64,000 nucleotides of DNA from an uncultured Bacteroidales bacterium (GTDB lineage: Bacteria > Bacteroidota > Bacteroidia > Bacteroidales > FEN-979): contig CAISRB010000011.1 of assembly GCA_903887775.1 (NCBI GenBank), positions 1-64,000 of the forward strand. Reading direction: 5' to 3'. The position numbers and the translations under genes were made by a program. Below the pieces are notes generated by a model that worked only from the letters and a program-made list of their open reading frames with translations, was not told the origin of the DNA and did no database searches. Positions 20,920-43,348 of this stretch are shown here, piece after piece. Position 1 is the first letter of the stretch, and each line of letters begins with the position of its first letter.

Positions 20920-23766
20920 TTAAAGGATGATGAATTTGCCGCCAGAGGAACCGGCTGATGTCACCAGCCTGTAGAAATACAATCCCGGCTTAAGCGCTCT
21001 GCCGGGATCCCATATGAAATCATGGGTTCCGCGCTGGACTATGCCAACGAAAACGGTCCCGGCCGGCTTTCCGCTGAAGTCATAAATGACAAGTTCAGCA
21101 TCAGTTGTTTTCCCTGCCAGCAGTTCAAAGTTGACAGGTCCGGAGGAGGGGTTGGGAAACACTTTTACCTGGCAACCTGATGAGGGCTGTTCCGTCGGAC
21201 TGTCAATGCCGGTGAAAACCGGCTTCGGGAGCCTTACCGTGGTATATAACCTGTATTCTCCCGGGGTGAATGGCAGGGCAGCCGCTACGTCGGTCACATT
21301 CAGTGAATCACCGCTGTAATATTCATACCAAAAGCCTGTTTTCGTGAAATTGGGGATCATGTTTTGCGCAACCACGTCAAAATTGCCGAGGATCACTGCG
21401 TCCATCGATGCATCTGTGAGAACGATGCGTTTTTTTGCTGCCGTAAGATCTATCGTGTAAGATTCGCTCCTGAATACGGGGAAGTTCTTTTTCAGTTCAA
21501 TGAGAGAATGATATACATTATATAAATATTTCCTACCCCATTTTGAATAATAGTCCCACCTGACAGGTTTGGGATCAAGTCTGGAGGCGGATGTGCCTGA
21601 AGGATAATTGATAGAGTAATCGTATCCCAGTTCACCAAACTGCCATATCATTTTAGGGCCGGGTATAGTGAAAAAGAAATTCGCGCAAAGAGCTCCGCGC
21701 TGCAGTGCGGTTGCAGAGTCTTTACAACTGTAAGGGGGGGTATTGCTGTTGCCGGAGCTGTAATCTTTGAACATCTGCCTTTCTTCATCATGGCTCTCCA
21801 TATACCATACAAGGTTTGGTTTTGCCCAGCCACGGTTTTTGTATGAACCCCATGAGAGGTCGGAAACGCCGCCGCTGTTCCATCCGCCGGAGGCGTTATT
21901 ATCATTTCCATTTCCATTGCCCCAGGGCATCATGCCTGCTGCGGCCAATAATTTTTCCTCGCTGTTATCGGCAAAATGCTCAAGGATCATATAGGCTGAC
22001 TGATTTACCGACCAGACAGTATCGGCATAGACATTCAGGATGTTTATCCGGTCCTGGTCATATTGCCCCCAGAGGCTGACATTGTCGGGATATGAATTAA
22101 CCTGGGTAAAACCTTTTGACATGTCGAAGCGATAGCCGTCGGTATGGAACTCCTGCAGCCAGTATTTCAGGAGACGCAGCATATACGATCTTGTAGAAGG
22201 ACTGTCATGGTTGAAATCGAGGCCGACATTATAAGGGTGTTTGGGTATAGGATTAAACCAGGGGCTGTTTGCGGCAGGACGCTGGTTCTGTGAATCCCAG
22301 TATAGCTGGACGAGGGGAGAAGATCCGAAATGATGGTTGCATACGATGTCAAGGATCACGGCTATGCCTTTCGAATGGGCTGCTTCCACGAATTGTTTCA
22401 GGGTGTTTTTTGGCCCGTAGTATTTATCCACAGCAAAGGAATAATCAGGATTATACCCCCAGCTTATGTTTCCCTCGAATTCCATGACCGGCATCAGTTC
22501 GATGGCATTGACTCCCAGGTTTTTCAGGTAATTCAGGGTGTCGATAAGAGAGAGATAGGTGTGTTCGCTTGTGAAATCTCTGATCAGAAGCTCATATATC
22601 ACGAGGTCGGTAATAGCGGGTGGTGTAAAGCCCTGCGATGACCAGGGATATGAAAATTGAGCGGTCTGAAGCACGCTTGCAATGCCGGTCGTTTTGCCCT
22701 CAGGATAAGGAATCAGGTCAGGATAGGTTGAAGGATCTATATACTGATCGTTGGGGTCGCTGACCTTATCACAGTATGGGTCGCCGATTTTCAGGGTGCC
22801 GTCGACCAGGTATTGAAAAATATATTCTTTCCGGGGGATAAGGTTGTTGATCTGAATCCAGAACATGCTGCCATCGGGGGTTTTGTACATATAATGAAGG
22901 GAATCCTGCTCCCAGTTACTGAAATCACCCAGGGCGAAGCATGACTGCTTCAGCGGTGCATAAAGACAGAGGTCTACTGTGGTTGAATCGATGTAATTGA
23001 TGCCTTCCTTTATACCTGCCGGAAGCGCCGCAACTGATGGAGAAGGGATCACGGTATAACAGAAAGAATCGGCAGCTGCAGCCGTATCGTTTTTTGCAAG
23101 GATCTTAATCCATTGTTTCACCCAGTTATGGCCAAAATTATCTGCCAGGAGCGTATCGGTGATTTCGTGGCCCGATACTGTTTTAACGAGAGTCCCGTTC
23201 AGAAAGAGCTGCATGCTGCCGGCCAACGGACTTGTTGCATCCACAGGAATGGGTTCATATGCCGGAAGAAAGAGGTTTTTATTCTGTGGGAGGTTGATCT
23301 TAACGCTGGTTTTAGTCGGATAAACGTTCGCAAATATGTCACCCCCGTCCGATTCCCGTCCTGTTTTTGAACCATCGGAATTCCTGAAAACGAAAGCGAG
23401 TTTTAAAATTGATTCACCCGGAGGCACACCATAAAATGCCCTGATGCCCGGAAGTAATTTGATGCTGTACAGATTATTTCCCAGGGATGTCATCCTTGCT
23501 TTTGCAATATTTTCACTCCATCCGGCTATCACATATTTCCAGTCGGAGGTTGAGCTGCTCAGGTTTGTGATGACACCTGTATGCGCATAAATGGGTGGAG
23601 CGACATTGAAAAGGCCGGCATTGCCTTTAGAAGCATCGAATATAACAGTACAGGAATCCAGATCAGTGGGATAAACTGGTATTGTCACAATGGTCTGGGC
23701 TGAAACTGTCCCGCAAATAAGATTGCAGAGAAAAAAAACAAGCAAAGAAGTGAAAAGCCTTTTCAT
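20920..23766 (-). CDS. T9SS-secreted GH13 alpha-amylase
   Basis: 948 residues from the ATG at 23764-23766; the upstream ATG at 23787 overlaps the -7 element. Order of domains: signal peptide (NLICGTVSAQ), two N-terminal beta modules (about 20-245), an E-set/CBM48-like module (FALGDFSNWEQD, about 255-345), the GH13 barrel (about 375-760), a short C-terminal beta domain and a T9SS type A sorting domain (VFPNPSSGPVNF, LKPGLYFYRLV). GH13 regions I-IV are present: DIVCNHH, DGYRFDMSKG (nucleophile Asp), MILEHFA (acid/base Glu) and ESHDEE (Asp). It should cut surface starch outside the cell and feed the SusCDE complex encoded divergently. Confidence 0.88.
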   Translation of the reverse strand: MKRLFTSLLVFFLCNLICGTVSAQTIVTIPVYPTDLDSCTVIFDASKGNAGLFNVAPPIYAHTGVITNLSSSTSDWKYVIAGWSENIAKARMTSLGNNLYSIKLLPGIRAFYGVPPGESILKLAFVFRNSDGSKTGRESDGGDIFANVYPTKTSVKINLPQNKNLFLPAYEPIPVDATSPLAGSMQLFLNGTLVKTVSGHEITDTLLADNFGHNWVKQWIKILAKNDTAAAADSFCYTVIPSPSVAALPAGIKEGINYIDSTTVDLCLYAPLKQSCFALGDFSNWEQDSLHYMYKTPDGSMFWIQINNLIPRKEYIFQYLVDGTLKIGDPYCDKVSDPNDQYIDPSTYPDLIPYPEGKTTGIASVLQTAQFSYPWSSQGFTPPAITDLVIYELLIRDFTSEHTYLSLIDTLNYLKNLGVNAIELMPVMEFEGNISWGYNPDYSFAVDKYYGPKNTLKQFVEAAHSKGIAVILDIVCNHHFGSSPLVQLYWDSQNQRPAANSPWFNPIPKHPYNVGLDFNHDSPSTRSYMLRLLKYWLQEFHTDGYRFDMSKGFTQVNSYPDNVSLWGQYDQDRINILNVYADTVWSVNQSAYMILEHFADNSEEKLLAAAGMMPWGNGNGNDNNASGGWNSGGVSDLSWGSYKNRGWAKPNLVWYMESHDEERQMFKDYSSGNSNTPPYSCKDSATALQRGALCANFFFTIPGPKMIWQFGELGYDYSINYPSGTSASRLDPKPVRWDYYSKWGRKYLYNVYHSLIELKKNFPVFRSESYTIDLTAAKKRIVLTDASMDAVILGNFDVVAQNMIPNFTKTGFWYEYYSGDSLNVTDVAAALPFTPGEYRLYTTVRLPKPVFTGIDSPTEQPSSGCQVKVFPNPSSGPVNFELLAGKTTDAELVIYDFSGKPAGTVFVGIVQRGTHDFIWDPGRALKPGLYFYRLVTSAGSSGGKFIIL

Positions 23767-23786
23767 AATATCGGATTTAGTAATCA

Positions 23787-23794
23787 CAAAAGTA
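23787..23794 (-). promoter_or_regulatory. -7 element for the secreted amylase
   Basis: The minus strand reads TACTTTTG (TAnnTTTG), 20 bp before the ATG at 23766. This places the transcription start after the alternative ATG at 23787. Confidence 0.4.
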
Positions 23795-24026: not shown

Positions 24027-27017
24027 ATGAAGAAACGTGTACTTAGGTTACGTTATCTGATTTTGTTTTTCGCCTTGGTATCAGCTTCGATTGCTCATGC
24101 TCAGGAGATCACTATTTCAGGTAAAGTGACAGATGCGACAGATGGAAGTTTACTTCCGGGGGTGACTATCGTTGTTAAGAGTACAACAACGGGTACAGTT
24201 ACCGACGTAGACGGAAAATTCTCCATCAAGGTAAAGAAGGATGCAGTGCTTGTTTTTTCCTATGTTGGTTATCAGACACAGGAATTTACAATTACTGAAC
24301 AGCGGAAACTGGATGTTTCTTTGTCTGTCGGAACAAAAAGCCTTAACGAGGTTGTCGTGATCGGTTACGGTACGGTAAAGAAATCAGATGCCACAGGATC
24401 CGTTGCTGCAATTGACCGCAAGGATTTTAACCAGGGAGCTATTCAGTCCCCCCAGCAGCTGATCATCGGAAAGATTGCCGGTGTACAGGTTACCACGACC
24501 GGCGGTGCTCCGGGTGGTGATGCTATCATTCGAATCAGGGGCGGTTCTTCTATTAATGCCAATAATGATCCTTTGCTCGTGGTTGACGGTGTTGCCATTG
24601 ACAATGCTTCGACTTCCGGAGCCCGCAGCACTTTAGGTATGCTTAACCCGGATGAAATTGAAACATATACTGTTCTGAAGGATGCTTCCGCCACTGCAAT
24701 TTATGGTTCACGTGCATCGAACGGGGTTATTATTATCACAACGAAGAAAGGAGCCGTTGGAGCAAAAAAAATCGGCCTTGAATATTCAGGTAATGTATCA
24801 ATATCCACTGTGCCTAAAACACTCAGCGTTTATAACGCTGATGATTACCGGGCACTGGTATTATCAAGGGCAAGACAAGGACTCCAGAATATAGATACAA
24901 CCCTGCTTGGCACTAGCAATACAAACTGGCAGAAAGAAATTTACAGGAATGCATGGGGAACTGACCACAACCTTGCTTTGACAGGCGCAGTCTCAACAAT
25001 GCCGTACCGTGTTTCTGTAGGATATTCATACCAGGATGGTACACTGCTTTCTGATAATATGAAAAGGACGACCATTGGGGTGACATTAAACCCGACATTC
25101 TTCAAGAATTATCTGAAGATCAATGTCAATGCCAAGTATATGAATGAAAAGAACAGGTTTGCAGATAACGCAGCAATCGGTGACGCTGTTGCGTTCGATC
25201 CGACCCAGCCTGTTACTGCAGGAGGTAAATATGGATTATATAATTATTACTGGGCATGGTTACAACCCAGCAATCTCCCTGTTACAACAGCAACGACAAA
25301 CCCTGTCGCACGGTTGAATGAAACGAAGAACACTTCAACGGTTAACAGGTTCCTTGGCAATATACAATTTGATTATAAACTTCATTTCTTCCCCGATTTG
25401 AGGGTTAACCTCAACCTTGGGATGGATTATTCGAAGAGCAATGGCGAAAATTATGTTCCCACCTGGGCTACATGGAATTATTACGACAGCGGTGTTGACA
25501 ATATTTATGACCAGACGAAGAAAAATACCCTTCTTGATTTTTATCTGAATTATGTAAAAGAAGTGAAAAGCATCAGGAGCAAATTTGATGTCATGGCCGG
25601 TTATTCCTGGCAGCATTTCTGGGTGAATAATAACAGTTACAACGGCAATGTGCCTCATGATACCGCACACGCTAATACGATCATTGTGAAACAGGAATAT
25701 TACCTTGTTTCATTTTACGGTCGTTTGAATTATTCACTGTACAACAGGTACCTTTTGACCGCCACCATTCGCGATGACGGATCATCAAGGTTCTCAAGCA
25801 GCAACCGCTGGGGACTGTTCCCTTCAGTTGCCCTTGGATGGAAGATCAATGAAGAGAAATTCCTCAGGGATTCGAAAGTTCTTTCACAGTTGAAACTCAG
25901 GTTGGGTTGGGGAGAAACAGGTCAGCAGGATATTTCCAGCAACTGGTATCCTTACCTGCCGATCTTCGAGCTCAGTGACGGGTTTACAAGGTACCAGTTC
26001 GGAAACGTATGGTACCAGACCTTGCGCCCTGATGCATATGATCCGAACATTAAATGGGAAACAACCGCTACCTCGAACATAGGTATCGATGTCGGTTTCC
26101 TGAAAGACAGGATCACCTTTTCAGCCGATTACTTCTATAAGAACACCACGAACATGCTGAACTTCATCCCGGTGCCTGCCGGAACCAACCTTTCAAATTA
26201 TGTATGGACCAATGTAGGAAGCATGAATAACAGCGGTTTTGAATTCACTCTCGATGTGAAACCCATTGTGACGAAGGATTGGGTTTGGGATATCGGATTT
26301 AATGCCACCACCTACAAGAACAAGATCACAAAGCTCAATATCTCCGACGACCCCAACTACCCGGGTGTCATGGTTGGACTTATTAGCGGGGGTGTTGGAA
26401 ATACGGTTCAGATTGATAAAGTCGACTACCCGATCAATTCATTTTATGTATATCAGCAGGTATATGATAAAAATGGGGACCCGGTCGAAGGCTTATATGT
26501 TGACAGAAACGGCGATGGAAAGATCACCGATGCCGACAGGTATTGCTACAAGAGCCCGAATCCTACTTTTACATTTGGTGTAAACACAAGGTTGTCATAT
26601 AAAAAATGGACATTAGCTGCCAGCGGTCATGCCAATTTCGGCAACTATATGTACAATAACATTGAAGCCGACAGGGGAGTGTATGCAAATCTTTATCGCG
26701 GCAATGGACCATGGCTTGGAAATATTACAACCAACGTTACGAACACAAACTTCAATAATAATCGGTACCTTTCTGATTATTATGTACAGAACGCTTCGTT
26801 CTTTAAACTGGACTACCTTTCCCTTTCTTACAGCTTCGGGAACCTTGTAAAGAATACACTGAATCTCGGCATCACTTTTACCGTGAACAATGTTTTCACC
26901 ATCACAAATTACAAGGGACTTGATCCTGAGGTGAACCTCGGATCAACCCTGGGTATTGACAACAATATGTATCCAAGATCAAGGGTGTACGTTCTAGGTG
27001 TTAATCTTAAGTTGTAA
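24027..27017 (+). CDS. susC: SusC-like TonB-dependent outer-membrane transporter
   Basis: 996 residues. Signal peptide (ALVSASIAHAQ), then a carboxypeptidase-D-like domain (ITISGKVTDATDGSLLPGV, about 27-110). The TonB-box-proximal segment is LNEVVVIGYGTVKKSD, followed by the plug (QLIIGKIAGVQV, IRIRGGSSINANNDPLLVVDGV; about 120-235) and a 22-strand barrel ending LGVNLKL. SusC proteins import oligosaccharides through the outer membrane, powered by TonB-ExbBD, with SusD as a hinged lid. The neighbours (SusD, SusE, GH13 enzymes) point to maltooligosaccharides as substrate. The SusD gene begins 18 bp downstream. Confidence 0.93.
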   Translation: MKKRVLRLRYLILFFALVSASIAHAQEITISGKVTDATDGSLLPGVTIVVKSTTTGTVTDVDGKFSIKVKKDAVLVFSYVGYQTQEFTITEQRKLDVSLSVGTKSLNEVVVIGYGTVKKSDATGSVAAIDRKDFNQGAIQSPQQLIIGKIAGVQVTTTGGAPGGDAIIRIRGGSSINANNDPLLVVDGVAIDNASTSGARSTLGMLNPDEIETYTVLKDASATAIYGSRASNGVIIITTKKGAVGAKKIGLEYSGNVSISTVPKTLSVYNADDYRALVLSRARQGLQNIDTTLLGTSNTNWQKEIYRNAWGTDHNLALTGAVSTMPYRVSVGYSYQDGTLLSDNMKRTTIGVTLNPTFFKNYLKINVNAKYMNEKNRFADNAAIGDAVAFDPTQPVTAGGKYGLYNYYWAWLQPSNLPVTTATTNPVARLNETKNTSTVNRFLGNIQFDYKLHFFPDLRVNLNLGMDYSKSNGENYVPTWATWNYYDSGVDNIYDQTKKNTLLDFYLNYVKEVKSIRSKFDVMAGYSWQHFWVNNNSYNGNVPHDTAHANTIIVKQEYYLVSFYGRLNYSLYNRYLLTATIRDDGSSRFSSSNRWGLFPSVALGWKINEEKFLRDSKVLSQLKLRLGWGETGQQDISSNWYPYLPIFELSDGFTRYQFGNVWYQTLRPDAYDPNIKWETTATSNIGIDVGFLKDRITFSADYFYKNTTNMLNFIPVPAGTNLSNYVWTNVGSMNNSGFEFTLDVKPIVTKDWVWDIGFNATTYKNKITKLNISDDPNYPGVMVGLISGGVGNTVQIDKVDYPINSFYVYQQVYDKNGDPVEGLYVDRNGDGKITDADRYCYKSPNPTFTFGVNTRLSYKKWTLAASGHANFGNYMYNNIEADRGVYANLYRGNGPWLGNITTNVTNTNFNNNRYLSDYYVQNASFFKLDYLSLSYSFGNLVKNTLNLGITFTVNNVFTITNYKGLDPEVNLGSTLGIDNNMYPRSRVYVLGVNLKL

Positions 27018-27035: not shown

Positions 27036-29243
27036 ATGAAACGAATATTTAAAATAACATTTTTAGCAGCAGCATTAATGCTGTTTATAGCCTCCTGCAC
27101 GAAGGATCTGAATACAACGCCGATCAACCCGACGTTGTATACCCCGGCCAATGCATATATCAATGCTGCCGGTTATAAGCAGGTTTTGGCAAAATGCTAT
27201 GCAGGCCTTTCTGTTACAGGCCAGCAGGGACCCGCAGGAAAACCCGATATCTCCGGGATCGACGAAGGGTTCGGAGAATATATACGTATGTACTGGTATC
27301 ACCAGGAACTTACTACCGATGAATCAGTGATGGCCTGGAACGACCAGACAGTTCATGACTTTCATTCCCAGACCTGGGGATCAGGCGATGTGTTCATTGC
27401 AGCTATGTATTACAGGATATTTTACCAGGTAAGCCTTTGCAATGAGTTTATAAGGGAATCGGATGACAGCAAGCTGGATTCTCGCGGAATTACCGGGCAG
27501 GACAAGATCAACTGCCAGTATTACCGCGCAGAAGCCCGTTATCTTAGGGCACTGAGCTATTATCATGCTCTCGACCTTTTTGGCAATGTTCCCTTTGTAA
27601 CTGAAGCAGATTCACCCGGTAAATTCTTCCCCCCCCAGAAGAACCGCGCTTTCCTGTTCAACTATGTCGAATCGGAACTTAAAGCTATCGAACCTTTGAT
27701 GGTCGGTGCACGCGCCAACGAATACGGACGTGCTGATAAAGGGGCTGTTTGGACGCTTCTTGCCAAACTGTACCTGAATGCCAAAGTTTATACCGGCACC
27801 GACAGGAGTACCGACTGCATCACCTATTGTAATAATGTAATCAACTCAGGTTACACCCTGGAACCAAAATACGCGAACCTGTTCCTTGCAGATAATACCA
27901 ACAGCAACGAAGTGATTTTCCCTGTTGAATTTGATGGGGTGAATCAAAAAACCTATGGTGGAACAACCTTCATCATTTCTGCTGCAATCGGCGGAAGTAT
28001 GAAACCTGCTGATTACGGAACTTCGAACAGCTGGGGCGGAACCCGTACCACGAAGTCATTCGTTGAGCTCTTTTACCCGAACCTGAAAGACGGTCTCTGG
28101 TCATCAGGAACACCTCCTAAGAACCCAAAATCGTACCCGGTATTAAACTGCCCGGGATCTTACCAGGGATGGAACCCCAGCGACCCAAATCATGTTGTAG
28201 GTTCTGTCAAAAGTAACAGCGAGTATGAAGGATACCTGTATTTCGAAAATGCCGGCACACAGTTCAAATTAGCAAAAGGATCATGGGATGTTAACTGGGG
28301 AGACGATGGAACTCTAAGCGGTAAGCTGAAACATGGTGGAGATAATTTTAGCATTGCTGACCCTGGTTATTACAAAGTCAATTGCGATACAGCTTTGATG
28401 ACTTATTCTATTCTGAAAACTAACTGGGGTGTGATCGGCGACGCTACACCCGGTGGATGGACCACCGATACTCCCATGGCTTATGATACCGCTACAAAGA
28501 CCTGGAGGGTCACCCTGGATCTCCTTGGAGGCAAAGGGCTGAAATTCCGTGCAAACGGTGGCTGGGACCTTAATTATGGTGATGATGGTCAGAAAATCGG
28601 GTTGCTGAAACCCGGCGGAGACAACATCACCATCCCCGAAGATGGGTCATATGTTGTAGTCATGAAGCTTGGTGCTCCTGACTATACCTATACCATTACG
28701 AGAAACAGCTATGACACAAGGGCAATGTTCTATACTGACGGACAATCTCTTGAAATCAAGGATGTTGGTACATTCACTGATGGTTATGCTATAACGAAGT
28801 TCAAGAACATCACGAGCACAGGAACTGCAGGATCAAGTTCTACCTTCATGGATACAGACTTCCCTATGTTCAGGCTGGCTGATGTTTACCTGATGTATGC
28901 CGAAGCTGTTCTCAGAGGTGGTGGCGGCGGGAGTATTGAGCAGGCCCTTACTTATGTTAATGCGATCCGTGAAAGGGCATACGGAGATAAGGCCGGAGAT
29001 ATCTCATCTTCTGACCTGACATTGCCCTTTATCCTTAACGAAAGGGGACGGGAATTATATTGGGAATGCCACCGCAGAACTGACCTTATCCGTTTTGGGG
29101 AGTTCAGTACAAGTACTTATTTGTGGCCGTGGAAGGGTGGAGCCAAGAACGGGATTTCCGTTGCTGCGTTCTATGATATTTTCCCGATACCCTCATCCGA
29201 CGTCTCGGCGAATCCCAACCTCATTCAAAATACCGGATATTAA
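27036..29243 (+). CDS. susD: SusD-family starch-binding lipoprotein with two SusE-type modules inserted
   Basis: 735 residues, about 190 longer than a usual SusD. The lipobox is at MLFIASC (Cys21). Residues about 22-365 are the SusD/RagB helical scaffold (AEARYLRALSYYHALDLFGNVPF; WTLLAKLYLNA). Residues about 368-558 are two beta modules, PGSYQGWNPSDPN...WDVNWGDDG and VIGDATPGGW...WDLNYGDDG. They match the C-terminal module pair of the SusE protein encoded next. The SusD fold then resumes (TRAMFYTDGQSLEIKD, PMFRLADVYLMYAEAVLRGG) to the end (FPIPSSDVSANPNLIQNTGY). The reading frame is continuous, so the insertion is a genuine protein feature. It should bind starch at the cell surface as the SusC lid, with extra binding sites carried on the insert. 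Confidence 0.92.
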   Translation: MKRIFKITFLAAALMLFIASCTKDLNTTPINPTLYTPANAYINAAGYKQVLAKCYAGLSVTGQQGPAGKPDISGIDEGFGEYIRMYWYHQELTTDESVMAWNDQTVHDFHSQTWGSGDVFIAAMYYRIFYQVSLCNEFIRESDDSKLDSRGITGQDKINCQYYRAEARYLRALSYYHALDLFGNVPFVTEADSPGKFFPPQKNRAFLFNYVESELKAIEPLMVGARANEYGRADKGAVWTLLAKLYLNAKVYTGTDRSTDCITYCNNVINSGYTLEPKYANLFLADNTNSNEVIFPVEFDGVNQKTYGGTTFIISAAIGGSMKPADYGTSNSWGGTRTTKSFVELFYPNLKDGLWSSGTPPKNPKSYPVLNCPGSYQGWNPSDPNHVVGSVKSNSEYEGYLYFENAGTQFKLAKGSWDVNWGDDGTLSGKLKHGGDNFSIADPGYYKVNCDTALMTYSILKTNWGVIGDATPGGWTTDTPMAYDTATKTWRVTLDLLGGKGLKFRANGGWDLNYGDDGQKIGLLKPGGDNITIPEDGSYVVVMKLGAPDYTYTITRNSYDTRAMFYTDGQSLEIKDVGTFTDGYAITKFKNITSTGTAGSSSTFMDTDFPMFRLADVYLMYAEAVLRGGGGGSIEQALTYVNAIRERAYGDKAGDISSSDLTLPFILNERGRELYWECHRRTDLIRFGEFSTSTYLWPWKGGAKNGISVAAFYDIFPIPSSDVSANPNLIQNTGY
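28137..28706 (+). repeat. Module pair inside susD, paralogous to susE 3' part
   Basis: This segment encodes the inserted pair of SusE-type modules. The protein and part of the DNA (PGSYQGWNP, INWGDDG/VNWGDDG, LKFRAN, WDLNYGDDG) correspond to 29742-30299 in the same order and spacing. Confidence 0.75.
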
Positions 29244-29264
29244 TCAGTTTAAAACCCAGATACT

Positions 29265-30308
29265 ATGAAAAAAATATTAATATTAATCCTGGCTCTTGGT
29301 CTGATAGCATTTTATTCCTGTAAAAAGGATGAGACCAAAGCCACGCTCAGTGCTTCTCCGAATGCTTCGGTTTTAAACCTTACAAGCGGGGCTCAGATCA
29401 TTCTGAAGAAGTCTGATTCGGGACAACTGATCACATATTCCTGGTCAGCTTCCCAGTTTGGTCAGGTTGTCGTTATCGGTTATACCGTTGAAATGGATAT
29501 GGTCGGAAATAGTTTTAAAAATGCTATTCCGGTAGTACAGTCAAGCAATGCCCTGTCTGCGTCCATCAATACATATGACTTTAACCAGAAGATACTCCCT
29601 ATGGAGTATGATCCTAAAAATCCGACTCCCATTAACCTGGAGTTCAGGGTAAAGGCTGTCATCAATGCCAATATAGACCCGCTTTATTCGGCTGTCGTAC
29701 CCCAGACTATCACACCATATTTCGTTAAGATAGTTTATCCCATACTTTTCGTTCCGGGAAGTTACCAGGGCTGGAACCCTGCCGATTCATCAACCGTTGT
29801 CACTTCTAAATCTTCCAACGGGCAGTTTGAAGGATATATCTGGTTCGGAACCGACCAGGTGCTGTTCAAGTACACTCAAAAACCCAATTGGGATATTAAC
29901 TGGGGGGATGATGGCGCTGACGGCACTCTTAACCCCGGTGGAGCTAATATTCAAGCTGGTCTGCATGGCTACTATAAGCTGAATGTCGACCTGCCTAACC
30001 TCACCCATAAGTTCCTTCTCACGGCCTGGTCGATTATCGGAGATGCAACATCAGGCGGATGGAACACCGATACTGATATGAAGTATGATTCCATTTCCAA
30101 AACATGGTCGGTAACAACTGGCCTGACTGCTGCTGGCCTGAAATTCCGTGCCAACCACGCATGGGATCTCAACTATGGCGACGATGGCAGCAATACAGGT
30201 AAACTTTCCGTCGGTGGTGCAAATATAGCAGTACCTGCAGGCGGAAACTACACTGTTATTCTCAACCTGAGCCAGCCTATTTATAAATATCAGTTGAAGA
30301 AAAACTAG
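29265..30308 (+). CDS. susE: SusE/SusF-like surface starch-binding lipoprotein
   Basis: 347 residues. The lipobox is AFYSCKKDE (Cys19), and acidic/lysine residues just after the Cys fit a surface lipoprotein export signal. Residues about 25-155 form the SusE N-terminal domain (LNLTSGAQIILKKSDSGQ, TYSWSASQFGQ). Two C-terminal binding modules follow, about 162-252 (PGSYQGWNPAD, WDINWGDDG) and 253-347 (IIGDATSGGWNTD, WDLNYGDDG). The SusE/F family holds starch at the surface without enzymatic activity. The gene is 21 bp after susD and is followed by a bidirectional terminator. Confidence 0.85.
   Translation: MKKILILILALGLIAFYSCKKDETKATLSASPNASVLNLTSGAQIILKKSDSGQLITYSWSASQFGQVVVIGYTVEMDMVGNSFKNAIPVVQSSNALSASINTYDFNQKILPMEYDPKNPTPINLEFRVKAVINANIDPLYSAVVPQTITPYFVKIVYPILFVPGSYQGWNPADSSTVVTSKSSNGQFEGYIWFGTDQVLFKYTQKPNWDINWGDDGADGTLNPGGANIQAGLHGYYKLNVDLPNLTHKFLLTAWSIIGDATSGGWNTDTDMKYDSISKTWSVTTGLTAAGLKFRANHAWDLNYGDDGSNTGKLSVGGANIAVPAGGNYTVILNLSQPIYKYQLKKN
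29742..30299 (+). repeat. Module pair at the susE 3' end, paralogous to the susD insert
   Basis: Partner copy of 28137-28706. The order is the same: PGSYQGWNP module, then IIGDAT module. Confidence 0.75.
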
Positions 30309-30383: not shown

Positions 30384-33086
30384 TTATTTCGCTTCAGGCT
30401 TCAGTAAAAATTCCAGCGGTACATCGAGCCGTTTAGCCCATGCCTTTTCGGAATGATTCTCGCCAGGGAAATATCTCGTGATCCGGTTTTTTTCCCTATA
30501 GCCCCCTGACTTCATTATGGCATCAGCCTTTAACTGGAAAGGTTTGTACATACTGTCGAGTGTCTGGTCGCCATAATCAAAATAAATTTTATGGGCAGAA
30601 GGACTGGGGAGATGTGTTTTCAGGTATTGCAGGAAGGCATCGGGTATCGGATTGTTTTCGGTTGCAAGAATTCCGGGCCAATGTGTTGAAAGGCAGGCAG
30701 CTCCACCGAACACTTCGGGATATTCACAGATGGCGTAAAGGCTAATCAGGCCTCCCATGCTGGAACCGGCTATTATAGTATTGCTACGGTCTTTTAATGT
30801 CGAAAAAGTACTGTCGATGAATGGTTTCAGCTCGCTCACAAGAAATTTCAGGTATCGATCGGATTGTATTTCCGAAGCAAACAAAACCTGGTCCTTGTTC
30901 CGGGTTGAGTTATATATGGCTTGCTGCTGCTCTTTTGTGAGTGATTCGAAGGGTTTCTGAGGGAAGTATTCGGAATGCCTCAGCTTCCCGCCATTCCAGA
31001 TGCCCACCACAATACATTCACGGATCTTTTTCTGTTTCATCAGTGTTCCCGCTGTTTCATCCACACACCATTCCTGGTGGTTCCATGTGGAGGAACTGTC
31101 AAAAAGCATCTGCCCGTCATGCATATATAAAACAGCGTATTTTTTCGCAGGGGAATATCCATCAGGAAGCCATACATCAACATTCCTGTGAGCAACATAA
31201 TGTGAAGGGAAATCTTCAAAATGCCTGACCGAGCCTGAAGAAACCCTGGGCGGCATTTTAAGGATCATCCCGCTCAGGGGTTTTAATATAATACTGTCAC
31301 CCCTTATAACTTTGTTGCTGAGAATATCAGTTGAGCCTGAAATTCCGCGCAAAGCAAAGGTTTGAGGAACAGGACCGGAATTGATCATAATAATAAGCTC
31401 ATGTTGACTATCGGAACGCTTATATGCCAGTTTACTGCCATCCGTGATAAGAAACTCAAATTTGCCTGTGCTTAAAATCTGGTTTGATTTCCTTATGTTG
31501 ATGAGTTTCCTGTAAATTTCAAACTGCTCCCCGTTAAAGCCAACCGGGTCATAGGATTTTACACCTGGCTGGTAGTTGTTCCTCGTCTCCGGATCAAACT
31601 TATACTCTTTCCACCATAAAGGTTTGCGGCAGTCGGGATCATCTTCTCCCCACATGCCCATTTCCTCGCCATTCCATATCTGGGGGGCGCCTACGGTAGT
31701 GAACAGCCATACAAGATAAAGCCTCATCCGTTTGTAAGTTTCAGCATCCGGTTTCCCGGTCCGGTAAGAAGAGTCATCACGTGGAAGCGCGTTTACTTTG
31801 TATTTATTGGTATTATAGAAATCGGTCAGCAGTCGCGGGGCGTCGTGGGTTGATGAAACGTTCATCATCGAGTAAAGGTTTTCAGGCCTCAGCCGATTCC
31901 ATTGCAGCTCAATGCTGTCGCGGAACTGCTTTGCATCGATCGGGAAATTAGTCTTTGCAAAGAAATACCTTGCAGGCCGGTACACCTGGTAAAACATGAC
32001 TGCATCAAACACATCGCCTTTCGTGTATGGAGCAGGGTCCATCAACACATTGGGCCATTTTTCCCACCAGATCTCCCCGATGAGGTAAGCCTCGGGCTGA
32101 ATCGAGCGTACAAACTTTCTCCAGTCACGCCAGAAAACCATGCCTATCTGGTCAGCCACATCCATCCTGAATCCATCTATCCCTTTCGTGCTGTTACCAC
32201 CAGGTGCCAGCCATCGTTTTGTAACAGCAAAAATATACTGCTTCGCCCCGGGGTTTATATCTCCTTCATATGGATGCCCGTTTTCCCTTTTAGTTGTTAC
32301 ATTTACTTTCCTGATCTCGGGCAGACTTTCTATTCCAACCCAACCGTGATATTTAAATTCATTCTCAGGCGTTGCAGGGTCATCGAAGGAAATGATATCG
32401 TACCAGTCTTTATAGGCCGATGCCGACTGCTTTTTAAGTATGTCCTGCCATGCCCAGAACATCACACCTGTATGGTTCCATGAATAATCCAGTAAGACTT
32501 TCATCCCGCGTTTATGTGCCTCATCAACAAGGTTTAAAAATAATTTGTCGGCTGATGTCCATTTCCAGGTCGCCGTGTCCACAGGGTTTTCAAGAGCAAT
32601 AATTTGCCTGTCTCCTTTGGGATCGGGTCCGAAATTAACATCGACGTGATGGTAACTGCGGGCATCATATTTGTGAAGCGATGGTGCGTCATTGACCGGG
32701 TTGATGAAAATTGCCGTAATGCCCAGTTCCTGCAGGTAATCAAGTTTATTCATGACTCCCTGAAGGTCACCTCCGTACCTGCGGTATTGCAGGTTGTCCA
32801 TGAAAGGCTTATTTGTTGCTCTGGCCCAGTCCTCCTGCTCAAACCAGTTATGTGTCCATGGTGTTATTGACCAGCCCGGGGGGGCAATTTGTTTCAGGGG
32901 AGGAATATTAATATCATCGGGTTTGGGATCATTCTTTTGATCACCGTTATTGAAACGTTCAACAAAAATCTGGTACCAGATTGCGTTCTTAGCCCAGGCC
33001 GGGGGCTGGTCAGGAGGTGTTCCGGCATTTTGTGCATTCGCCACTACCTGAGAAAGCAGGAGCAGGGCGATAATCCATTTTTGCAT
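30384..33086 (-). CDS. GH13 alpha-amylase fused to an alpha/beta-hydrolase esterase
   Basis: 900 residues with signal peptide (LLSQVVANAQ). Residues about 30-610 are a GH13 enzyme: NAIWYQIFVERFNNGD, region I LDYSWNHTG, region II GIDGFRMDVADQ (nucleophile Asp), region III LIGEIWWEK (Glu), region IV SSTHDAPR (Asp). Residues about 625-895 are an esterase of the enterochelin-esterase/CE1 type, VDVWLPDGYSPAKKYAVLYMHDG with nucleophile elbow AGSSMGG (Ser776) and the late His in FPGENHSEKAW. One chain thus joins glucan cleavage and ester hydrolysis, which suggests an acylated starch-like substrate or product; that is inference. It is the last gene of the starch operon, 12 bp after the GH127-like gene. 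There is no T9SS domain, so it is probably periplasmic. Confidence 0.85.
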   Translation of the reverse strand: MQKWIIALLLLSQVVANAQNAGTPPDQPPAWAKNAIWYQIFVERFNNGDQKNDPKPDDINIPPLKQIAPPGWSITPWTHNWFEQEDWARATNKPFMDNLQYRRYGGDLQGVMNKLDYLQELGITAIFINPVNDAPSLHKYDARSYHHVDVNFGPDPKGDRQIIALENPVDTATWKWTSADKLFLNLVDEAHKRGMKVLLDYSWNHTGVMFWAWQDILKKQSASAYKDWYDIISFDDPATPENEFKYHGWVGIESLPEIRKVNVTTKRENGHPYEGDINPGAKQYIFAVTKRWLAPGGNSTKGIDGFRMDVADQIGMVFWRDWRKFVRSIQPEAYLIGEIWWEKWPNVLMDPAPYTKGDVFDAVMFYQVYRPARYFFAKTNFPIDAKQFRDSIELQWNRLRPENLYSMMNVSSTHDAPRLLTDFYNTNKYKVNALPRDDSSYRTGKPDAETYKRMRLYLVWLFTTVGAPQIWNGEEMGMWGEDDPDCRKPLWWKEYKFDPETRNNYQPGVKSYDPVGFNGEQFEIYRKLINIRKSNQILSTGKFEFLITDGSKLAYKRSDSQHELIIMINSGPVPQTFALRGISGSTDILSNKVIRGDSIILKPLSGMILKMPPRVSSGSVRHFEDFPSHYVAHRNVDVWLPDGYSPAKKYAVLYMHDGQMLFDSSSTWNHQEWCVDETAGTLMKQKKIRECIVVGIWNGGKLRHSEYFPQKPFESLTKEQQQAIYNSTRNKDQVLFASEIQSDRYLKFLVSELKPFIDSTFSTLKDRSNTIIAGSSMGGLISLYAICEYPEVFGGAACLSTHWPGILATENNPIPDAFLQYLKTHLPSPSAHKIYFDYGDQTLDSMYKPFQLKADAIMKSGGYREKNRITRYFPGENHSEKAWAKRLDVPLEFLLKPEAK

Positions 33087-35095: not shown

Positions 35096-36454
35096 TTACC
35101 GTTTCTGGTAAACCCGGTATTCCCAGGCTTTGAGTGTCAGGGTCTGAACATTTCCAAGATTCAGATTCTGGCTGTCCAGTACAGGTTCCCATTTCTCGGA
35201 AGGAATACCATCTGGAAATTTTACAGTACATGGAACAGACGACAAATTAAGAATAACTAAAACCTTGTTGTTGTCTTTCTCCCTCATAAATGAATATACC
35301 GACTTCTCCTGGTCATTACGGACCTTCGAAAATGTTAAGCCAACATTGCCGTTTTGCATGGCCTTATTTGTTTTCTTCAGGTCGCAAAGTGTGGTATAGA
35401 AGTCCTGCAGAGGGTATGTACCCCATTTAACCGTATCCTTGTCGAAAAAGCGCAGCCTTTTACTCATTGCCGACTCCTGGCCTGTATATATAAGAGGGAA
35501 GCCCGGAAATGTAAAACAGAAAACTGCAAAAGTTTTAGCGGCAGGCCCAAGTCGTTCATATTCGCTTCCATTCCATGAGTTTTCATCATGGTTGGTAGTG
35601 AATCTCATCCTGTATGCATCGGCATGAAATCTTTTCATCTCTGAAGTAAACACCGAATCAATCTTATCGGCTGTTTTTTTCCCTGCAGCAATGTCATTCG
35701 TGAGTTTGTAAAGGTCCCAGGAATAGGTGGCGTCGAAAGCAGTATCATGCATTTCCGGAGTTTCCCATTCGGCCAGCATGAAAATCGGTTTGAGTTTTTT
35801 AACCTCGGGCACAGCCTTATTCCAAAAGCTTACCGGCAGCATCCCTGCCACATCGCAGCGGAAACCGTCTATATCTGCTTCCTTTACCCAGTAACACAAG
35901 GCATCGGTCATGTATTTTCTGAGTCCTGCCTTAGAATAGTCCAGGCCGGCAACGTCGGTCCAATCTGCGACAGGAGGGATGATGTTCCCCTTTGCATCCT
36001 TCTTATACCAGTCGGGGTGCTTTGTGATCAGGTTGTTGTCCCATGAAGTATGGTTGGCAACCCAATCGATGATCACATACATCCCAAGTTCGTGGGCCTT
36101 GCTTACCAGCTCTTTCAGATCGGCCAGGGTCCCGAATTCGGAATTCACCGCCAGATAATCCTTCACAGCATAATAACTGCCCAGGCTGCCTTTGCGGTTT
36201 TTAACACCTATAGGATTTATCGGCATCAGCCATAAAATGTCAACGCCCATTTTTTTCAGGCGCGGCAGATTTTGCTGAAACGCCTTGAAAGTGCCTTCAG
36301 GTGTGTATTGTCTTACATTGACTTCATAGATCGTAGCATTACGGCTCCAATCTGGGTGGCCTGGTTTTCCAGCCTGGCTTGATGATTCCGTTTTTGGCTT
36401 ACATGCACTCATGACCAGGAGGATTGAAACAAATAGGATCAGTGTTTTTTTCAT
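35096..36454 (-). CDS. GH13 alpha-amylase lipoprotein
   Basis: 452 residues. Lipobox LLVMSACKPK (Cys18). A compact GH13 enzyme without accessory modules: WSRNATIYEVNVRQYTPEG, region I IDWVANHTSWD, region II DIDGFRCDVAGM (Asp), region III FMLAEWET (Glu), region IV TTNHDENSW (Asp). A small C-terminal beta domain ends WEYRVYQKR. It probably hydrolyses maltooligosaccharides while anchored to a membrane. It starts 7 bp after the preceding GH13 gene. Confidence 0.88.
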   Translation of the reverse strand: MKKTLILFVSILLVMSACKPKTESSSQAGKPGHPDWSRNATIYEVNVRQYTPEGTFKAFQQNLPRLKKMGVDILWLMPINPIGVKNRKGSLGSYYAVKDYLAVNSEFGTLADLKELVSKAHELGMYVIIDWVANHTSWDNNLITKHPDWYKKDAKGNIIPPVADWTDVAGLDYSKAGLRKYMTDALCYWVKEADIDGFRCDVAGMLPVSFWNKAVPEVKKLKPIFMLAEWETPEMHDTAFDATYSWDLYKLTNDIAAGKKTADKIDSVFTSEMKRFHADAYRMRFTTNHDENSWNGSEYERLGPAAKTFAVFCFTFPGFPLIYTGQESAMSKRLRFFDKDTVKWGTYPLQDFYTTLCDLKKTNKAMQNGNVGLTFSKVRNDQEKSVYSFMREKDNNKVLVILNLSSVPCTVKFPDGIPSEKWEPVLDSQNLNLGNVQTLTLKAWEYRVYQKR

Positions 36455-36461
36455 AAATCAA

Positions 36462-38849
36462 TTAATTACTTAAGAGTTCAAATGAATTACCATTAAGGGT
36501 CAGACTGACTTTCCCTTTTTCAATACTTGTTTTATTCCCAAAATTTGATGTGAATACGGAATTGGCGAATCTCTTCGGAATCTCAAACTCGATCTTCCTT
36601 GAATTTTTATCTTTATTGAATACGGCAATTACAGCCTTGTCGAAATAGGAACGCATATAGATGAAAACTTTTTCACTGACTTTGATCGTAGTGAAATCTC
36701 CGTAAATCAGCGGCAAACTCTCCCTCCGCATATTAGCAAGCTTTGAAGTGATTGCAAGGAGGTGCTTTTCATGGGTGTTCAGGCTGTCGAATTTCATCAT
36801 CCTGCGGTTGTCAGGATCGGCTGCACCGGCCATCCCGTATTCATCCCCGTAATAAATCACGGGGATCCCCGGTATGGTCATATTAAAAGCCATAAGCGAG
36901 GCAAGTTTATAGTAGCCAATCGTATCCTTCACCTGGACGTCGCGTTTCCATCCCGCTTCAGAGGCGTCTTCTGAAAGGCTCAGGGCCCCGCCTGCATAGG
37001 AAATGAAGCGTGGCATATCCTGGTTCCCCGTGATGTTGCCCATCAGGTTATGCTCTCCAAAATAGCTGAACGACTGCTGAAGCGAATAATTCAGGTCGCG
37101 GAAGGACGTATAGTCCTGGGCAAAAGTATTCTTTGCATCCCAGTAAAGATTGAACTCGAACTGGGCGTCAAGCATACCGGGATTGATATAGCTCCTGATC
37201 AGTTCCCGGCTGCCGAAAGTTTCACCGATCTGGTATACCTTTCTGCCTTGGGGAATGACAACCTGCTGAGTGAGTTTTTTATTCAACACACGCCAGTAGT
37301 TTTCAGGGACGTGTTTTGCAGCGTCATGCCTGAAACCGTCAATATTGTATTCCCTGATCCAGAAGGTGGCCGAATCGGAAACCATTTCAGTAACCTCAGG
37401 CCGTGTGAGATCAAAAGTTGGCAGGAAAATGTCGAACCAGGTAGTAAGGCGGTTCTCATCAAACATCCTGATGTTTTTTCTTTTTCCCGGAAGGTCCAGC
37501 ACCGTTATCCAGTCGGGATGTGCTTTGAAAACTGCATATTCCTGGTGTGCGTGATGGGAAACAAAATCAAGCACGATGTTCAGGCCTTTACCATGCGCAT
37601 CATTTACCAACTGGTGAAGTTCGTCAGCTGTGCCGAACCGGGTATCGACAGTCGTAAGTGTGATGGGCCAGTATCCATGATAGCCCGAGAATTTCCGGTG
37701 TGGCGCGGGAAATTCATTATATCCTTTAAGCGGGTTCTGGGTTATGGGGGATATCCAGAGTGTATTTACACCCAGTTTTGTGAAATAGCCTTCTTCAATG
37801 GCTTTCGTGATTCCGTTAAGGTCGCCTCCCATATAATTGACCTTGGGATCAATATCCTTATCTTTTATAGGGGCGTTATTTTCTTTATTCCCGTCGCGAA
37901 AGCGGTCGACCATTATAAAGTACAAAATCATTGCTTCCTGGTCAGCCCTTGTGAGTTTTGAAGCATCGGTAAGTACTTTCCCATTTTTTAAAGGCACCAG
38001 GATCTCATTTGAAATGCCGGTTTTATTAACAGCCCAGGCACGTATGAAGCTGCGCTCGAAAGAACCTGCAGTCTTGGGAACGCTGATATGTATCCCGCTG
38101 CTGTCCTGCTTCCAGAATTTGCCATCGAGGAAATGATTATCCCAGAGAACAAACACTGTGTCGGCTTTGTTCTTTAAACCCAGGATCAGCTTTTTGCCTT
38201 CAGCTTTTACAGTAAATAAGGATGGAAGTGAGGTGGAATTCAGGTTCCCAAGGGTCAGTTGGGAGTTATAGCCTCCATTATTGTTCGAGACTGAATCCGG
38301 ATTATTCCTGTCAGAAGCCCATTTGCCATCGCAGACTATCTTGTACTGGTATTTTCCCGGGTAGAGAAAGAGATCGGTATACCACTTACCATCCTTCAGG
38401 AACATATACCCTCCCGGAGGATTCCAGTCGTTCATCTGCCCCGCGATCTGCACCTTTTTGTATTTTTTGTTCCCCGGATCAAAACTGAACCGGAAATGGA
38501 TCTTCTGTGAGCGTTCCAGTATAAGTGAGTATGAAAATCCTTTCGACCAGACCGTGAGGGTGCTTAGCATGGGTATATTATGTTCCCCCGGGCTGAGGAT
38601 CATTTGCAGGGAATCCTTTGTTATCCTTGCCGTAAGTGATTTGTCAACAAAGAAAGAATCGATTTTATTCGGGTAAAGAAAATAATCACCAAGTTCAATC
38701 ACTGTGGAGTCAGCTGTGTTTACCGTTACCGGGGCTGACAACTTAAGCATCTGAGGTTCCTTTGAAACAAGGATATCGGTTCCCGAGCCGCAGGCCTGGA
38801 AAAGAAGCGCAAAGCCGAAGAGGGATAAAATGGAAGAAAACTGTTTCAT
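36462..38849 (-). CDS. GH13 lipoprotein with CBM48-like module and altered active-site motifs
   Basis: 795 residues. Lipobox LLFQACGSG (Cys20). An N-terminal beta region (25-125) precedes a CBM48-like starch module (VQIAGQMNDWNPPGG, YQYKIVCDGKW; about 130-205). A linker beta domain and the GH13 barrel (about 300-720) follow. Region II NIDGFRHDAAKH and region III YQIGETFGS keep the catalytic Asp and Glu. Region I reads LDFVSHHAHQ where DxVxNH is usual. Region IV reads GNQDMPR where NHD is usual, so the conserved His is Gln while the Asp stays. Activity is plausible, but specificity may be shifted. It lies 33 bp after the esterase gene. Confidence 0.85.
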   Translation of the reverse strand: MKQFSSILSLFGFALLFQACGSGTDILVSKEPQMLKLSAPVTVNTADSTVIELGDYFLYPNKIDSFFVDKSLTARITKDSLQMILSPGEHNIPMLSTLTVWSKGFSYSLILERSQKIHFRFSFDPGNKKYKKVQIAGQMNDWNPPGGYMFLKDGKWYTDLFLYPGKYQYKIVCDGKWASDRNNPDSVSNNNGGYNSQLTLGNLNSTSLPSLFTVKAEGKKLILGLKNKADTVFVLWDNHFLDGKFWKQDSSGIHISVPKTAGSFERSFIRAWAVNKTGISNEILVPLKNGKVLTDASKLTRADQEAMILYFIMVDRFRDGNKENNAPIKDKDIDPKVNYMGGDLNGITKAIEEGYFTKLGVNTLWISPITQNPLKGYNEFPAPHRKFSGYHGYWPITLTTVDTRFGTADELHQLVNDAHGKGLNIVLDFVSHHAHQEYAVFKAHPDWITVLDLPGKRKNIRMFDENRLTTWFDIFLPTFDLTRPEVTEMVSDSATFWIREYNIDGFRHDAAKHVPENYWRVLNKKLTQQVVIPQGRKVYQIGETFGSRELIRSYINPGMLDAQFEFNLYWDAKNTFAQDYTSFRDLNYSLQQSFSYFGEHNLMGNITGNQDMPRFISYAGGALSLSEDASEAGWKRDVQVKDTIGYYKLASLMAFNMTIPGIPVIYYGDEYGMAGAADPDNRRMMKFDSLNTHEKHLLAITSKLANMRRESLPLIYGDFTTIKVSEKVFIYMRSYFDKAVIAVFNKDKNSRKIEFEIPKRFANSVFTSNFGNKTSIEKGKVSLTLNGNSFELLSN

Positions 38850-43347: not shown

Positions 43348-43348
43348 C

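Follow-up and report, generated by a model that had tools for sequence, protein, structure and literature searches.

An uncultured Bacteroidales bacterium (assembly GCA_903887775.1) carries, on contig CAISRB010000011.1, a starch-type susC-susD-susE run in which the SusD protein, the lid of the transporter, contains an additional pair of modules of the kind found at the C terminus of SusE and SusF (X25-type modules). The stretch analysed here, referred to as the window, comprises positions 1 to 64,000 of that contig. In the proposed mechanism, the module pair has been plugged into the lid of a starch-type SusCDE system at a fixed site 13 residues beyond W333, which corresponds to W320 of Bacteroides thetaiotaomicron (B. 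theta) SusD. With a flexible linker on its N-terminal side as the hinge, the pair would form a starch-gripping arm that holds alpha-glucan beside the lid's own starch site, raises the local substrate concentration upon lid opening and lets the lid do part of the work of a surface glycan-binding protein. From sequence comparison and predicted structures, we place the probability that the lid acts as such a hinged arm at roughly 0.68. Modules inside a SusD lid recur, in any case, as a variant of an uptake system that is itself well known.

A module pair inside the SusD scaffold

The three open reading frames follow one another on the plus strand, and the window SusD is divided into scaffold, linker and modules as follows:

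24027–27017, plus strand: SusC (TonB-dependent transporter), 996 residues; Plug PF07715, TonB_dep_Rec_b-barrel PF00593 and CarbopepD_reg_2 PF13715 above cut-off
27036–29243, plus strand: SusD with the insert, 735 residues; C21 at the lipoprotein position conserved
27036–28073, plus strand: N-terminal part of the SusD scaffold (residues 1–346), from the phmmer alignment to solved SusDs
28074–28133, plus strand: linker into the insert (residues 347–366), of low model confidence and probably flexible
28134–28424, plus strand: module D1 (residues 367–463, with W379 and W417), the first module of starch-binding type
28425–28706, plus strand: module D2 (residues 464–557, with W475 and W510), the second module of starch-binding type
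28713–29240, plus strand: C-terminal part of the SusD scaffold (residues 560–735), PF07980 SusD_RagB
29265–30308, plus strand: SusE, with an N-terminal PF14292 domain and a module pair (residues 158–347)

An earlier note on this DNA, made from the sequence, had described a single continuous susD frame of 735 codons whose scaffold is interrupted by two beta modules, and both parts of this description are borne out. The best relatives of the window SusD in the PDB are Bacteroides vulgatus 3jys and B. theta SusD (phmmer). Residues 40–346 and 559–735 align to the former, and residues 48–352 and 558–735 to the latter (3ck7), with nothing aligned in between in either case. The aligned pieces are separated by 205–212 residues in the window protein, compared with ~38 in B. 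theta SusD and 13 in 3jys, and the insert was never the best-matching stretch in the 23 PDB sequences that the window SusD matched. The scaffold breaks after F346 and resumes at D560, leaving a gap of residues 347–559 of which the two modules fill 367–557 (28134–28706). The model of the whole protein (mean predicted local distance difference test, pLDDT, 90.4; predicted template modelling score, pTM, 0.78) superimposes on 3jys with a VIA Z of 52.1 (460 residues, 1.4 Å) and on B. theta SusD 3ck8 with a Z of 48.8 (454 residues, 1.6 Å). Along the chain, the mean pLDDT falls from 92 at residues 331–340 to 59 at 351–360, and returns through 76 at 361–370 to 95 at 371–380. PF07980 scores 123 bits (cut-off 23.1), while the N-terminal PF14322 stays below its cut-off of 27 with 19.8 bits in a region that aligns to solved SusDs by phmmer. 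The putative lipoprotein cysteine C21 is invariant across 51 aligned relatives. The strict NCBIfam exception model for SusD, NF033071, gives 446 bits in two stretches, below its curated cut-off of 725, and by these profiles the window protein is SusD-like and lies outside strict NF033071.

The lid seems to have kept its own starch site. The site residues of B. theta SusD, which we take to be D73, R81, W98, Y296 and W320 and whose letters agree with the PDB sequence, correspond to D76, R84, W101, Y307 and W333 of the window SusD; W96, presumably also part of the site, is replaced by M99, and N101 by D103. All 118 starch-type SusDs compared, with the insert present or absent, retain W101, D76, R84 and D103, and 117 of them retain W333, the sole exception being an assembly gap. 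The insert therefore comes on top of the old site instead of taking its place. An apparent loss of part of the site in L056 and L103 was set aside, since it looks like a contig assembly gap (X in the frame) and not like biology.

The insert and residues 158–347 of the neighbouring SusE are identical at 99 of 192 positions (BLASTP E-value 2e-57 in this single comparison), and their DNA at 327 of 567 bases over the aligned codons. Like modules match better (first with first 44/91, second with second 52/93) than modules compared crosswise (27/82 and 29/87), which suggests that the pair travelled as a unit. This is the module-by-module correspondence that the earlier note had proposed, and the motifs it had named lie where it placed them: in SusD, NCPGSYQGWNP at 371, WDVNWGDDG at 417, VIGDATPGGW at 466, WDLNYGDDG at 510 and TRAMFYTDGQ at 561; in SusE, the counterparts of the four module motifs at 163, 209, 257 and 300.

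Pfam SusF_SusE (PF16411) recognizes the insert alone with 58.8 bits (cut-off 27.5). Folded by itself from 70 sequences, the insert is predicted to form two beta-sandwich modules (pLDDT 96.6, pTM 0.90); L114 was excluded from the alignment used for folding (A3), and a separate alignment, A4, excluded 7 of 51 insert and 13 of 38 SusE references. The top VIA-align match of the model is SusF 4fe9 (Z 12.7, 172 of 191 residues aligned, 4.8 Å), followed by SusE 4fem and 4fch (Z 11.8, 172 aligned, 4.9–5.0 Å), which are structures solved with alpha-cyclodextrin and maltoheptaose. These matches span both modules; further ones are Sca5 X25-2 (Z 10.4 over 96 residues) and a pullulanase (Z 9.7). The alternative raised by the earlier note was a normal SusD loop; the predicted insert best resembles SusF and SusE folds. 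Neither phmmer nor a profile search matched the insert to the sequences of PDB SusE or SusF chains, and a PDB search with another module protein likewise matched none of these chains; the link to SusE and SusF comes from Pfam and from the fold. The PDB sequence profile gave one relevant match, BT3088, the protein that binds glycan in the dextran system of B. theta, the others being weak and unrelated. PF14292 is present in the neighbouring SusE and was not found in the window SusD, and judged by these domain matches the insert is modules only, without the N-terminal domain of SusE.

D1–D2 pairs also occur on other proteins of the family, namely Fib_succ_major proteins (L148:3548-6064 and L150:4698-6572), an fn3-type protein (L151:4106-5533, below cut-off) and an Lcl_C protein (L149:3079-7272); the modules of L150 and L151 additionally match Pfam X25_BaPul_like above cut-off.

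Predicted binding residues and partners of the insert

The case for starch binding by the insert includes its four predicted platform tryptophans, two in each module. Apart from a deep Saprospiraceae-type group there are 59 two-module SusDs, of which 59 keep W379, 58 W417, 58 W475 and 59 W510. According to PMC9112005, X25 modules stand in tandem in SusE and SusF, and an X25 tandem of Ruminococcus bromii with two tryptophans per module binds long maltooligosaccharides through these paired residues, with a dissociation constant (Kd) of 0.61 µM for maltoheptaose; the same source gives a Kd of ~300 µM for single SusF modules and no binding for single R. bromii modules. Together, the conservation of the tryptophans and the binding by X25 tandems suggest that the lid bears a starch arm, a reading that convinces most for the two-module form.

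Several observations weigh against this interpretation. Among the 13 two-module SusDs of the deep Saprospiraceae-type group, W379 is kept in 2, W417 in none, W475 in 4 and W510 in 5, and in two further two-module proteins standing outside both counts (L155 and L156) the tryptophans of the first module are absent by eye; starch gripping need not be the role of the insert everywhere. Three relatives from the window's own family that have no insert keep an intact SusD, which makes the insert dispensable. The weak or absent binding of single modules reported in PMC9112005 weakens the case for one-module forms. The orientation of the arm is left open by the model, whose pTM is 0.78 against a pLDDT of 90.4, and Foldseek alone returned just two matches for the insert at E ≤ 0.001.

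The loci of the deep Saprospiraceae-type group have a further peculiarity: 11 of the 13 also encode a protein of ~600 residues with five modules of the second type (D2). Such five-D2 proteins are found at L092:3124-4911, L095:13078-14856, L101:3056-4930, L102:10257-12053 and L104:2850-4670, and also in L105, L106 and L108–L112. The one that was scanned, from L092, ends in Por_Secre_tail, a type IX secretion tail. This domain composition suggests a secreted multi-module starch binder, occurring mostly where the SusD inserts have lost their tryptophans.

The deep group also provides an argument for the strongest rival explanation, in which the insert serves above all for docking or structure, keeping SusE, an amylase or another SusD at the lid, with starch binding secondary: the SusDs of this group keep a two-module insert of ~200 residues despite having lost most of the platform. 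In line with docking, a SusCDE complex is described for Flavobacterium johnsoniae in PMC12611786, and the title of Foley 2018 states that SusE aids starch uptake independently of starch binding. However, pure docking does not require the four tryptophans that are kept in 58–59 of the 59 main-group sequences, and insert-bearing SusDs occur beside two different types of SusE module, so that there is no fixed module-to-module pairing. Docking as the main role is therefore unlikely in our view, although it deserves more weight than any other rival.

The partner proteins bear on the same question. The earlier note had gone further and suggested that the insert could pre-load glucan directly over the SusC channel, a direct hand-over that here would be hypothetical. 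A change in SusC that tracks the insert was looked for, and the median SusC frame is 998 residues beside two-module SusDs (n = 48) and 1001 beside SusDs without modules (n = 23); in an alignment of 47 against 21 SusCs, no column differed in occupancy by more than 0.5 and one weak residue switch was seen. These sequences give no sign of a remodelled SusC-SusD interface, which argues weakly for an arm that points away from the SusC-SusD contact. In 35 of the 45 two-module loci, susD is directly followed by a frame of SusE size (347–430 residues, a size criterion only), so the arm is mostly an addition to SusE. The SusEs of the three insert-less family members (L145:6516-7649, L146:8455-9636 and L147:463-1635) are of a different type, with modules 27–29% identical to those of the window SusE. 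SusEs that are 48–55% identical to this second type stand beside the insert-bearing SusDs of L089, L098 and L118, and SusE type and insert are thus not tightly linked.

Distribution, exchange and origin of the insert

SusDs with modules at the same insertion point, which the earlier note had proposed to search for, were found in many genomes. Within the window's family, the full-length form is present in 19 of 43 genomes (its own genome counted); 3 of the 43 have a close SusD without insert (N-terminal part 68–69% identical, frames of 530–537 residues), 1 further genome has a fragment only, and the remaining 20 have no such close match. In the window's order, the insert form is present in at least 12 of 295 genomes, again counting its own. 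Among named genome records, 80 loci were collected, and 79 frames contain both SusD parts, the truncated frame of L113 standing outside this number; at the insertion point, 21 of these frames have no module, 5 have one, 52 have two and one (L114) has three. Because the loci were taken as the top matches of a query that carries the insert, these counts are not frequencies. The record titles name Bacteroidales, Lentimicrobiaceae, Prolixibacteraceae, Saprospiraceae and Neolewinella aurantiaca, and the one-module records include Lutibacter flavus and Rhodohalobacter halophilus (Balneolota).

A sample of the phylum gave a strong SusD match in 106 of 395 genomes, and the insertion point was inspected in 24 of these 106 besides the window's own (19 best matches and 5 chosen by frame length). 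Two modules were present in 2 genomes, one module of the first type in 8, one of the second type in 3, an unrelated stretch in 2 and nothing in 9. All eight first-type cases belong to one genome group (f142), and the three second-type and two unrelated-stretch cases to another (f124); overall, one-module forms are of the first type in a Balneolaceae group and of the second type mostly in Flavobacteriaceae. Four other f142 genomes have frames of 525–549 residues only, which makes this group mixed in occupancy as well. The unrelated stretch at the insertion point, of ~85 residues, is found in L175:3317-5188 and L176:753-2624; a Pfam scan of the former, the one scanned, gave no match within it. 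This range of occupants suggests that the insertion point after the SusD starch site behaves as a socket for modules. A broader statement, to which we give even odds, is that starch-type SusD lids of Bacteroidota and Balneolota hold none to three SusE/F-type modules (a single one being of either type) or an unrelated stretch at this socket, that the history of the cassette, with its gains, losses and exchanges, is largely separate from that of the other transporter parts, and that a lid can in this way become its own tunable surface glycan-binding protein.

Gain and loss were followed on a scaffold tree from which the insert had been left out (120 rows, after removal of near-identical rows from 132). 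Presence and absence of the insert require 11 changes on this tree, or 9 once the distant outgroup is left out. The three insert-less genes of the window's family nest inside the insert-bearing group, and a single clade of the insert-bearing family genes is rejected (31 rows, approximately unbiased (AU) test, p = 0.0093). In the empty form, F346 is joined to D560 via a few residues. The insert was hence most likely lost, cleanly and once, inside this family.

Exchange is best illustrated by L023 and L024, whose susD genes are 99.9% identical over the 1060 bp upstream of the insert and ~76% identical within it. Their amino-acid differences are confined to residues 372–567 and 614–665, and the synonymous divergence, 0.08 in the scaffold, reaches 1.08 in the insert. 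This pattern looks like recombination that replaced the cassette together with a second patch, the latter (residues 614–665 of L023) lying in the C-terminal part of SusD. One of the two genomes behind the pair (G008) is listed with 7% contamination, and both frames are intact; the contrast may come from a strain mix. Such exchange is what would be expected if the insert were a variable surface cassette, in which variation evades phages or other surface attack or retunes glucan preference between strains, and in which exchange itself, and not a fixed binding function, is selected. The same tendency is seen in L066 and L097 (75–86% identical over the insert, 91–97% beside it) and, more mildly and over the second module, in L074/L079 and L098/L099. 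Yet L023/L024 is the one sharp case. The other three pairs dip outside the insert too (for L066/L097, to 75–79% in SusC and 82–84% in the N-terminal part of SusD), the inserts of L077 and L080 differ by 2–4% only and show no contrast, and the ratio of nonsynonymous to synonymous substitution rates (dN/dS) of the insert stays low, at 0.03–0.16 in the 7 of 9 pairs for which it was computable. A variable cassette is on this evidence an improbable alternative to a starch-gripping arm.

The origin of the pair was addressed with a module-pair tree of 125 rows, calculated without bootstrap and excluding eight long or odd rows (the inserts of L105–L110 and L112 and the SusE of L139). In this tree, 65 of 67 SusD insert pairs cluster with one truncated SusD frame, separate from the SusE pairs (Shimodaira–Hasegawa-like approximate likelihood-ratio test, SH-aLRT, 97), and one old capture of the module pair fits best. 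The earlier note had seen in the insert a captured copy of the partner's binding arm, and had proposed to date the duplication by aligning the two. What stands is the presence of a SusE/SusF-type pair in the lid and its clear similarity to SusE (the 99 of 192 identities given above); what probably does not is a recent copy of the present partner, since the inserts group apart, the capture looks old and inserts are 43.7–66.5% identical to their own SusE across 39 loci. A recent local duplication in the window has in its favour that the genes are adjacent, with the same module order and 52% identity, and that grouping the inserts and SusE pairs of the nine loci around the window is not formally rejected (AU p 0.061). 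This grouping is disfavoured, at a cost of 47 log-likelihood units, and the window insert is 83% identical to the insert of L007 against 52% to its own SusE. We hold it to be very improbable that the window insert was copied recently from the SusE next to it. Local copying, as a second capture, may have occurred in L073, whose insert lies outside the main insert group and has its own SusE as nearest relative (66.5% identical, sister at 97). The placement of the L114 insert is ambiguous, with the SusE pairs in the pair tree and nearest to the inserts of L040 and L039 by identity. A single clade of all inserts is not rejected (AU p 0.36 with L073 and L114 included, 0.21 with L073 in and L114 out). 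For L082 the scaffold and insert trees disagree, and transfer between distant scaffolds is not claimed.

An assembly chimera of susD and susE, which the earlier note had named as a possible refutation and for which nothing speaks except that the two genes adjoin and share modules, can be dismissed: the full-length frame recurs in 19 of 43 family genomes, at least 12 of 295 order genomes and 52 of 79 named-record frames. One of these 52, that of Neolewinella aurantiaca SSH13 (L088), comes from a record without a metagenome-assembled genome label.

Genomic setting and comparison with known systems

On the minus strand around the susC-susD-susE run, the window encodes the following enzymes of a starch context (GH, glycoside hydrolase family):

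20920–23787, minus strand: GH13 alpha-amylase; secretion-tail match below cut-off
30384–33086, minus strand: GH13 alpha-amylase with an esterase domain
35096–36454, minus strand: GH13 alpha-amylase
36462–38849, minus strand: GH13 alpha-amylase
41491–44869, minus strand: cyclomaltodextrinase-type GH13 and GH77 4-alpha-glucanotransferase

By its gene content (the run, the GH13 enzymes, GH77 and a major facilitator superfamily transporter), this is an alpha-glucan locus. The frame directly after susE, on the opposite strand, is a fusion of PF00128 (GH13) to an esterase-type domain, PF00756. Far upstream, at 862–2270, two adjoining frames resemble an AbiE-type pair of a regulator and a nucleotidyltransferase.

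Insert-bearing SusDs can be regarded as natural fusions of the functions of a lid and a surface glycan-binding protein. In PMC7618045 and PMC7782687, it is left open whether surface glycan-binding proteins work beside SusCD and can take over the delivery performed by the lid. Existing genes make this question testable, as they include natural controls: relatives without the insert, forms with one or three modules, two almost identical genes whose differences lie mainly in the insert, and SusDs that retain the modules but little of the aromatic platform. Lid proteins in the databases can also hide extra binding modules. No description of SusE/F modules inside SusD was found in the titles, abstract openings and passages covered by full-text searches, which mostly excluded subscription papers, and one may yet be in print.

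The window SusD has the fold of B. theta SusD (PDB 3ck7–3ckc; Z 48.8) and equivalents of its D73, R81, W98, Y296 and W320, but ~205 residues separate its aligned parts instead of ~38, and W96 and N101 are M99 and D103. Its insert matches the B. theta SusE/SusF modules (4fem, 4fch, 4fe9; PF16411) in family and in fold over both modules, whereas the window modules are internal to SusD and have neither a SusE N-terminal domain nor a lipid anchor of their own. Like the X25 tandem of R. bromii Sca5 and Sas20 (7rpy; PMC9112005), the insert is a tandem, with two predicted platform tryptophans in each module (Z 10.4 over 96 residues); however, Sca5 and Sas20 are amylosome proteins and not transporter lids. 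A precedent for a binding module inside another Sus protein is SusG, which carries CBM58 in its domain B (PMC11267923), but SusG is an amylase and not a lid, and its module is a differently named one. Finally, the levan and dextran utilisomes of B. theta also hold a surface glycan-binding protein close to SusCD, there as a lipoprotein of its own that sits on the lip of SusC (PMC7618045), whereas in the window the modules are part of SusD.

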